64,000 nt of DNA from an uncultured Clostridia bacterium. GTDB taxonomy: Bacteria; Bacillota; Clostridia; TANB77; CAG-508. Location: positions 1-64,000 of the forward strand of contig CALXCA010000007.1 in the NCBI GenBank assembly GCA_944386685.1. Reading direction: 5' to 3'. The notes beneath the pieces were generated by a model. That model saw only the letters and a list, made by a program, of their open reading frames with translations. It was not told the origin of the DNA and searched no databases. Positions 7,774 to 10,365 of the stretch are shown piece by piece. The position numbers and the translations under genes were made by a program. Positions within the stretch are counted from its first letter, which is position 1; every line of letters starts with the position of its first letter.

Positions 7774-7801
7774 TTGACATGAATTTATGGTGTGATATAA
7801 T
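7774..7801 (+). promoter_or_regulatory. Strong sigma-A type promoter of the surface-protein locus
   Basis: TTGACA (7774) and TATAAT (7796), both perfect, separated by 16 bp. Transcription would start near 7808, giving a leader of about 500 nt before the surface-protein gene at 8308. No other equally good promoter is seen before that gene. Confidence 0.75.
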
Positions 7802-8015
7802 AAAAATGTAGATTTATAGAAAATAATTATTTATAAAAGACTATTAATGATAAAACAAATAAATAAGAAATATTTTGAATTATTTACATAATACTTACAA
7901 AATGAATAATAAAAGAGAGTTTTTCAATTATTAAATAAAGAAAAATTATTAATTAATTGAATAATACTTTCAACTACAAAATTTAAAAGAAAAAGTACAA
8001 AGGAGAATAGAAAAA

Positions 8016-8084
8016 ATGCAAAAGCTTGAAAGCCTTGAGGCTGTACACACACACACACACACACACACACACAGGGTATATTAG
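8016..8084 (+). CDS. Leader peptide containing the (CA)n microsatellite
   Basis: A 22-codon ORF (MQKLESLEAV, then alternating His-Thr, then HRVY) preceded by AAAGGAG with a 10-nt spacer. The repeat encodes four and a half His-Thr units and the frame stops right after it (TAG at 8082). With one CA unit fewer, the frame would stop at 8090. With one more, it would stay open until 8170, inside the 3' arm of the terminator. The peptide itself shows no recognisable domain. I infer a regulatory role from position, not from homology. Confidence 0.5.
   Translation: MQKLESLEAVHTHTHTHTHRVY
8045..8073 (+). repeat. (CA)14 dinucleotide microsatellite
   Basis: An uninterrupted 29-nt A-C alternation inside the leader ORF. 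Tracts like this are prone to slipped-strand changes by one unit, each of which moves the reading frame by 2 nt. No other dinucleotide tract of this length was seen in the window. Confidence 0.97.
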
Positions 8085-8117
8085 AGAAATAAATAAAAAA
8101 GAACAAAAGAAAAACAT

Positions 8118-8194
8118 AAAGCTATTTAGCAATATGTTATTTTTGCATACACAAAAAGTATGTGAAAAATAATGTGTTGCTAAGTAGCTTTTTT
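8118..8194 (+). terminator. Long intrinsic terminator between leader ORF and surface-protein gene
   Basis: Stem of about 32 bp (AAAGCTATTTAGCAATATG... with ...TGTTGCTAAGTAGCTTT, several G-U pairs and one bulged G), a 7-nt loop ACAAAAA, and six T residues at 8189-8194. The G-U pairs preserve pairing where the arms differ. It begins 34 nt after the present leader stop, and it separates the promoter at 7774 from the gene at 8308. Confidence 0.85.
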
Positions 8195-8307
8195 GAAAAG
8201 TAAAAGTTATGCAAAAAGAATACAATAAATATACGCTAAACTTAAAATAAGATAACATCAAAGCAAAAAAATATTATAAAAATTTTAAAAAAGGAAAGTG
8301 ATAAAAA

Positions 8308-10365
8308 ATGAGAAATTCAAAAGAAACTAGAAAAAACGAACTAAATAGCAAAAAAAATAAAAGAAACAAACTAATAAGAAAAGATACAAAAAAAGGAACA
8401 ACAATAATAGAATTTAATTTAAGTAAAGCAGTAATAATGCTAATAATAATAGGAGTAGTATTAGCGGGCTTACTAACAAAAGAGATAGTAACAACAATAA
8501 TAGAAGTAAATAAAACAGAACTGTTAGCAAATGAAGATGTAAATAATAAAGAAAATGGCACAGAAAATACGGGAAATGGAGAAACAGAAAGTGCAGGAAA
8601 AGACCAAAATGAAAATTCAACAAATTCAGTAAATGGAGAAGATGGAGAAGAACAAAATGAAGCAGATTTACAAACATCAAGAAGTATGAATGGAGACTTA
8701 GGGTATATAAGTTCAATAGACACAAAAGAAGTAAAAACAGGAACAGGACCATTTGATAAAGATGATGAACCAGGAAATGATTCATCAGAAGATAATGATG
8801 TAGTGCGCTCGTTTGACCAAATAACATGGACATACCAACTAAACTTTTCATTAAAAGAGCCAGACTCAGGAACAAGTTTAAAAGGAGGAGTAATACAAAT
8901 AACAGCAAGTTTACCAGAAGAACTAGCAAATATAGTAGAATGGGATATAGAGTCAATGAAATGGCTAAGTAATGGAAACTTAAGTGAAGATGGAATAAGC
9001 TTATCTGGAGAATACAGCATGAGTGAGGAAATAGTAACAATACCAGGAAACCAAGAAGTAATATTTGTATTAAAAGTAAAAAATGCAGTAAATGGAACAA
9101 AAATACAACCAAGTTTTACATTTATGCTAGAGGGAAATGAAGAGAATGAGAAAAAAGAGGTAACATCCCCAAAAGAAATAACAGTAAGTGCAACAGGAAG
9201 ATATAATATACAATTACATGACAATACAGAGGATTTATCAAATAAAGCAACAGTAGATTATGGAGAAGGAGAAGTAACAGGAAGAATGTATGGATATGGA
9301 TTTACAGTACAATTATATAATAATGAATATAGTGAAGAAGAAAATCCATATTCAAAAGGACTAAAAGGAATAGAATATCCAAAAGGAGAAATAAGTTTTG
9401 ATATAAACTTAAAATTAGAAAGAAGTGAATTTGGTTCAAATGAGTTAAAAGATATAACAGAAGAAGCAACACCAATATTATGGAATTATAGAGTAAATAA
9501 TTGGGATACTAATGATTTATCTGGAAGTATAAAAGATAGAGATATGTATTATAGTAGCAAAAGTTATAGTATTTATGATAAGGGCTTACCTTTAGGAATT
9601 TTAGATGATGAAAGGTATTATTCAACATATAATTCTGGAGATATAAAGATAGAACAAGATGGTTCAATATTACATGTTACAATAAATAATTATGAAATAG
9701 ATGGGGAATTTCCAATGTATAATTGTGTTTGGAATGGCACAATATTTGAAGATAGAAAAAGAATATATACAGACAACATAGGAACATTTAGTGTAGGATA
9801 TATGCAAATATTTGTACCAGATGCAGAAGCAAGTACAATAGAAGATAGAAATTATTATTTAACAGTATCAGATAATAATATGAAAGTACAAAAAAATACA
9901 CAATTAGAAATATTAGAGCAAATGAATCAAGAAGATGATACTATTAAGACATCACATGTGATATACAAACAAGGAATATATGGTCAAACAATAAGTATAT
10001 ATAATAAAAACTTTCAAATAGGATCTGCAGAATCTAAATGGGGAAAAGGAGATAGCAAAGTGAATATTGGTGATATTTTAGGAATGGAATTTACTTTTTC
10101 TATGAATTCAAGTAATGATATCGATGTATGTAGTGCGAATAAATTTATAAAGTTTGATGGAGATGCATTTGAACCAATATATTTTGATGATGGTAGTAAA
10201 TATAAATTAGCTGCTATGAATGGCAACACAGAAATTAGATTATGGTATGTAACGAAAAGTGATGGAAGCAATTGGATAAGTCAAGAAGATATGAATAATG
10301 GAAACATAGAAGATATGGAGATATATGAAACAATTGAAGAAATACCCAACGAGAAATCTGGATAA
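8308..10365 (+). CDS. Large surface protein, N-terminal part of a frameshifted gene
   Basis: Cell-surface protein with a basic N-terminus, one hydrophobic segment (about residues 45-70), an acidic Asn/Glu-rich linker, then an extracellular region with beta-rich segments. The frame closes at 10363. The -1 frame, open from 10338, continues at once with a CnaB-like stretch (IWIKLYKENENKE, YYEFTHLPAENYVV) and then joins the segment at 10695-11522. One lost base, or two gained, near 10342-10360 explains the break; an intact product would be about 1071 aa. There is no slippery heptamer at the junction. The start ATG has AAAGGAAAGTG upstream. Expression probably depends on the leader at 7774-8194. 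Confidence 0.75.
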   Translation: MRNSKETRKNELNSKKNKRNKLIRKDTKKGTTIIEFNLSKAVIMLIIIGVVLAGLLTKEIVTTIIEVNKTELLANEDVNNKENGTENTGNGETESAGKDQNENSTNSVNGEDGEEQNEADLQTSRSMNGDLGYISSIDTKEVKTGTGPFDKDDEPGNDSSEDNDVVRSFDQITWTYQLNFSLKEPDSGTSLKGGVIQITASLPEELANIVEWDIESMKWLSNGNLSEDGISLSGEYSMSEEIVTIPGNQEVIFVLKVKNAVNGTKIQPSFTFMLEGNEENEKKEVTSPKEITVSATGRYNIQLHDNTEDLSNKATVDYGEGEVTGRMYGYGFTVQLYNNEYSEEENPYSKGLKGIEYPKGEISFDINLKLERSEFGSNELKDITEEATPILWNYRVNNWDTNDLSGSIKDRDMYYSSKSYSIYDKGLPLGILDDERYYSTYNSGDIKIEQDGSILHVTINNYEIDGEFPMYNCVWNGTIFEDRKRIYTDNIGTFSVGYMQIFVPDAEASTIEDRNYYLTVSDNNMKVQKNTQLEILEQMNQEDDTIKTSHVIYKQGIYGQTISIYNKNFQIGSAESKWGKGDSKVNIGDILGMEFTFSMNSSNDIDVCSANKFIKFDGDAFEPIYFDDGSKYKLAAMNGNTEIRLWYVTKSDGSNWISQEDMNNGNIEDMEIYETIEEIPNEKSG

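Follow-up and report, generated by a model that had tools for sequence, protein, structure and literature searches.

The locus studied here, in a window of 64,000 nucleotides from an uncultured Clostridia bacterium, very probably belongs to a large family of phase-variable transcription attenuators, a reading that is well supported by comparison. A short leader containing a dinucleotide tract precedes a terminator-like hairpin and a surface-protein gene, and this architecture recurs among relatives together with a distinctive pattern of reading frames, covariation in the stem and variation in tract length. In the mechanism we propose, a slipped-strand change in the tract would shift the reading frame of the leader. 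In two of the three phases the ribosome would halt well 5′ of the terminator, the hairpin could form and the surface gene would be off, while in the third the ribosome would cross the 5′ arm and reach its stop only in the loop, the 3′ arm or further on, and the terminator, with its 5′ arm under translation, could not form, leaving the gene on. We infer that the hairpin terminates transcription and that ribosomes disrupt it, and the ON and OFF labels used below derive from reading frames and precedent.

Organization of the studied locus

The features of the locus, with positions counted from the first letter of the window, are the following:

7774–7801, + strand: sigma-70 type promoter, TTGACA-16-TATAAT, with TG ahead of the −10 element
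8000–8005, + strand: leader ribosome-binding site AAGGAG, read from the sequence
8016–8084, + strand: leader ORF of 22 codons, ATG at 8016, stop TAG at 8082–8084 (sequence and frame analysis)
8028–8045, + strand: conserved 18-nt core RWAASCSTTGNGGCTGTA adjoining the 5′ end of the tract (one-per-genome logo and core search in relatives)
8046–8073, + strand: (CA)14, the tract presumed to act as slippage switch (TRF: 8045–8073, 14.5 AC units)
8090–8092, + strand: leader stop with 13 (or 16) units (frame analysis)
8118–8194, + strand: intrinsic-terminator-like hairpin and T-run, arms 8118–8145 and 8164–8191 (RNA fold, z-score)
8170–8172, + strand: leader stop with 12 or 15 units, within the hairpin 3′ arm (frame analysis)
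8308–10365, + strand: predicted membrane-anchored surface protein gene, 685 aa up to a frameshift (ORF list, three-frame translation)
10366–11522, + strand: continuation of the surface protein in a different frame, with a membrane-anchor-like end (three-frame translation; ORF 10695–11522)

The promoter, called near-consensus in the sequence-only reading from which this analysis started, matches at all 12 consensus positions, and the ribosome-binding site and 22-codon leader with (CA)14 were found by direct reading where they had been placed. Frame computation also reproduced exactly the stops that had been predicted, at 8082 with 14 units, at 8090 with 13 and at 8170 with 12 or 15, so that the studied copy, with its 14 units, would be in the OFF state. 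Only two (CA)10+ tracts exist in the whole source genome, and both belong to the repeat-leader element. A comparison with Rfam gave no leader or riboswitch match at the gathering score, and the sub-threshold matches were mostly of microRNA type.

The stem, estimated earlier at about 32 bp, has 27 bp in an ungapped model and is slightly longer when folded, with T6 directly 3′ of it. Its predicted folding energy (−37.3 kcal/mol for 8118–8191, z = −8.66) was not equalled in any of 200 shuffles. A simple terminator scan did not have this hairpin in its list, probably because the scan restricts loop length and GC pairs.

The frameshift reported for the downstream gene is present in the assembly, near 10365, where the frame of ORF 8308–10365 closes and a SpaA-like coding frame carries on in a different frame to 11522; Pfam and NCBIfam profiles assigned the gene at 8308 to no family. 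A second broken surface gene lies nearby (13232–14823), a SpaA/EbpB-type LPXTG major pilin (NF033902, PF17802) that is made up of two overlapping ORFs in different frames. In addition, 22-bp tandem repeats that carry GACCGACCCC or its complement occur in two distant stretches of the window, 1–148 and 41012–41335.

Recurrence of the cassette and its conserved core

The same leader architecture occurs elsewhere in the source genome, as the sequence-only reading had proposed to look for: besides the studied locus (C7) there are five further copies, of which C8, C10 and C24 share the C7 hairpin and C5 and C19 have short tracts and no such hairpin. C10, with 12 units, would be in the ON state. The C24 copy (L131) is decayed, its leader start being out of frame with a tract of about four units, and its downstream gene is also frameshifted early. 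Beyond this genome, GCTGTA(CA)6 was found, with one mismatch allowed, in 34 of 143 relative genomes, a reversed control pattern being almost absent, and copy numbers were highest in G033 (30) and G089 (about 38). A scan of GTDB genomes returned at least 116 matching stretches, and among the matches listed all were from Clostridia-type metagenome assemblies, many of them from animal guts; in IMG/VR the cassette was on 22 viral contigs, which may include proviruses. A class-wide sample had it in none of about 235 genomes from other orders, confining it to the source order. In total, about 220 distinct copies were extracted (222 counted, with a few duplicates possible between collections). In most copies the leader start codon lies 27–42 nt 5′ of the repeat, and 17 of 26 independent clusters, compared with 4.2 expected, have a promoter with up to two mismatches 5′ of the leader. 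When the pattern demanded GGGTATATT 3′ of the repeat, the family was found only in the source genome and one relative, the remaining matches having no repeat, and the sequence on that side is thus lineage-specific. Contigs often break at or just past the CA tract (at many loci, for example L158, L176, L220, L225 and L276), as expected if assembly fails at multi-copy, length-variable sites. Two more CA tracts, at G005:C28:1741 and 14901, stand behind a different shared 5′ sequence, TTGCRGGAGTA.

Conservation of the core was examined in a logo of 30 rows, about one per genome, selected only for GCTGTA(CA)6 with one mismatch and including one row (L030) that is not a family member. Position −16 is A in all 30, −11 and −10 are T in 29, −9 is G in 27 and −7 is G in 25. 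Since position −8, a second codon position, is free (A15, T6, C5, G4) and third positions are fixed, the constraint must act at the nucleotide level, and conservation of the peptide can be ruled out. A short RNA hairpin within the core (AGCC-TTGA-GGCT) can likewise be discarded, because 98 of 221 copies have a C at −14 that disrupts the pairing. Nor is the core a universal requirement, given that a parallel set of CA leaders in the sister genus g8 (L386–L409; G095, G105, G122) carries another 5′ end, TGAWNRAACTA or simply ATGATAAGACTA, with the downstream design of the core family; these genomes have 15–28 CA-leader copies each, with terminators.

Searching for the core with no repeat requirement revealed a dinucleotide tract directly 3′ at most sites, with a local tally, made on DNA in which CA copies are over-represented, of CA 195, AG 4, AC 3, TACA 3, TA 2, GA 1 and none 14. 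Several of the repeat-less sites (L290, L295, L298, L300, L304, L306 and places in G004, G090 and G112) continue with AAGG or AAGT, apparently above base-composition expectation. The variety of tracts bears on classical amino-acid-sensing attenuation through a His/Thr-rich leader peptide, which is suggested by the (His-Thr)n that the CA tract encodes in the leader ORF. AG, GA, TA and AC tracts stand behind the same core, AG, GA and TA encoding other residues, and the genes concerned are surface and phage tail-region genes and not those of amino-acid biosynthesis, so that we give such sensing almost no credence.

Mismatch repair usually steadies dinucleotide tracts, which counts against frequent slippage. 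MutS1 is intact in the source genome and scores over the cut-off in 49 of 55 relatives, and loss of mismatch repair is therefore not the cause of tract instability. A speculative and on balance doubtful idea is that the core may be a portable instability element, making any dinucleotide tract that follows it slip often despite mismatch repair. If so, the core would be a nucleotide signal common to hosts of several families and to their phages, and pilins, glycan enzymes, HsdS-like and methylase genes and phage tail-region genes would share one contingency cassette.

Frame gate, stem covariation and tract length

We defined a frame gate as exactly two frames stopping 5′ of the hairpin 5′ arm with the third open through at least half of that arm. 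Of 104 copies whose T-tailed hairpin is strong, 91 had this gate, against a mean of 19 and a maximum of 29 in dinucleotide shuffles. When copies were reduced to independent hairpin clusters, 24 of 28 had the gate and four did not (200 shuffles: mean 6.0, sd 1.8, maximum 11). The stop of the long frame falls within the loop for 11 clusters, within the 3′ arm for four and beyond the hairpin for nine. Of the two early stops, the one further 3′ is at a median distance of 28 nt ahead of the 5′ arm, the distance being at least 12 nt in 22 of the 24. In genus g8 the strict gate was found in 14 of 20 copies, and four of the remaining six stop where the arm begins or just within it. Within the largest hairpin cluster (49 sequences, from relatives), paired cells make up 97%, and in 10 of the 18 base pairs both partners have changed, a tally of sequences and not of independent events, on a structure predicted from the same alignment.

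Tract length was seen to vary both between near-identical phage contigs and between paralogues. The 9,836-bp alignment of viral contigs L269 and L288 is free of mismatches and has a single 2-nt gap, corresponding to 16 versus 15 CA units; that of L283 and L285, over 6,148 bp, is likewise mismatch-free, with a single 6-nt gap (14 versus 11 units). Paralogues in G043 with flanks 97–100% identical have 9 and 14 units, and unit number differs in 14 of 25 copy pairs whose flanks are at least 85% similar. Judged by frame, the assembled gated copies comprise 74 predicted OFF and 17 predicted ON, each metagenome assembly giving one consensus tract length per copy; the ON share is under one third (p = 0.0025, calculated over copies that are not independent).

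The terminator switched by slippage that had been put forward for this locus thus gains from the frame gate in 24 of 28 clusters, from covariation and from length change with identical flanks, its ON and OFF states being still what we infer. In some Bacillota RNA polymerase outruns the ribosomes, which would weaken ribosome-gated termination. Such termination nonetheless works in Streptococcus gallolyticus (PMC3894217).

Two other explanations bear on these data. According to one, polarity would be translational or due to Rho or decay, early stops exposing the RNA to Rho or nucleases, or a long leader would be coupled to the next start, with the hairpin playing a minor part. Several phage contigs and some host copies, in which the long frame meets the next start codon (TAATG, ATGA) and there is no terminator, are in keeping with coupling. 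At the studied locus, however, the stop of the long frame at 8170 leaves 138 nt to the gene start at 8308, and there is a strong T-tailed hairpin of a kind that covaries in relatives, which makes this explanation improbable here. The other would have the locus as a non-functional relic, made up of a former in-frame N-terminus of a surface gene with a neutral repeat and of an unrelated hairpin. The frameshift in the studied gene fits this, as does the C24 copy, with its short tract and no leader frame, but a recurrent frame gate far above shuffles, covariation and the intact genes behind most other copies render it very improbable, and we retain repeat-gated attenuation as the preferred reading.

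Downstream genes and relation to known systems

Among the genes behind hairpin copies, 62 of the 91 that are readable have a type IV prepilin-like start (KGITLIALVITI...), as do 19 of 20 in G033. Because the Pfam prepilin motif scored below cut-off in the one gene tested, prepilin-like is to be taken as a sequence reading. Another 22 copies have no separate leader, the long frame continuing directly into the gene, and the partners in these in-frame fusions include acyltransferase 3, a TupA-like ATP-grasp protein, an HsdS-like specificity subunit, an N6/N4 DNA methylase and pilins. Those phage contigs that were inspected have the cassette within their tail region, ahead of holin-like and lysin genes; only one of five phage proteins tested matches a tail family in PHROGs, and the genes behind the cassette may encode receptor-binding proteins. 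Where the stop of the long frame overlaps the next start codon, as noted above for phage and host copies, translational coupling is suggested, and the fused and coupled copies would provide an independent frame-dependent readout of the same repeat.

Phase variation by repeat slippage is best known from pathogens. Here, an order of uncultured gut commensals seems to control much of its surface by repeat-gated attenuators, with about 30 loci in one genome under the cassette, nearly all of them pilin-like, and with viral contigs bearing the same cassette ahead of tail-region genes. Since repeat counts can be read from metagenomes, the predicted ON and OFF states of pilin and phage tail genes could be tracked in natural populations.

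Individual elements of the proposed mechanism have parallels. In E. coli attenuation of the pyrBI type, a leader-translating ribosome that enters the terminator prevents termination; pyrBI senses UTP through polymerase pausing, whereas the input here would be a heritable frame change. Coding-frame phase variation by simple repeats is known from Haemophilus, Neisseria and Campylobacter. The fused copies (acyltransferase, TupA-like ATP-grasp, HsdS-like, DNA methylase and pilins) resemble this classical type, from which the hairpin copies differ in that a separate leader holds the repeat and the readout would be transcriptional.

The closest parallel is in S. gallolyticus. The mechanism had been taken as undescribed in the sequence-only reading, a claim that does not stand, because Danne et al. 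(2014) demonstrated the same mechanism for pil1 of that species (PMC3894217). In the open-access papers searched, we found no report of the CA family and only that paper on the mechanism. GCAGA repeats lie in the leaders of pil1 and pil3, and their role was shown by work with variants, mutants and chloramphenicol; leaders in the OFF state end 28 nt or more short of the hairpin, and those in the ON state immediately upstream of it, inside it or past it (PMC3894217). As in pil1 and pil3, a short leader with a ribosome-binding site holds the repeat here and is followed by an intrinsic terminator (predicted in our case) and surface genes, and a change in repeat length shifts the stop of the leader from a site ahead of the hairpin to one inside or beyond it, with our median early-stop distance in the same range as in the S. 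gallolyticus OFF strains (PMC3894217). Common descent of the two elements is not supported, as repeat unit and leader are different. S. gallolyticus uses a pentanucleotide at two loci in one species, whereas the family described here uses dinucleotides, in up to about 38 copies per genome and across an order, and it differs further in having a conserved nucleotide core, in being carried by phages, and in copies that are fused in frame to genes or are likely coupled to them in translation. What is new is thus the order-wide, multi-copy use, mostly on pilin-like genes, a core that tolerates other dinucleotides, carriage by phages, and three apparent readouts (attenuator, in-frame fusion and coupling) from one cassette, by which a mechanism known from a single species would become a general regulatory strategy.
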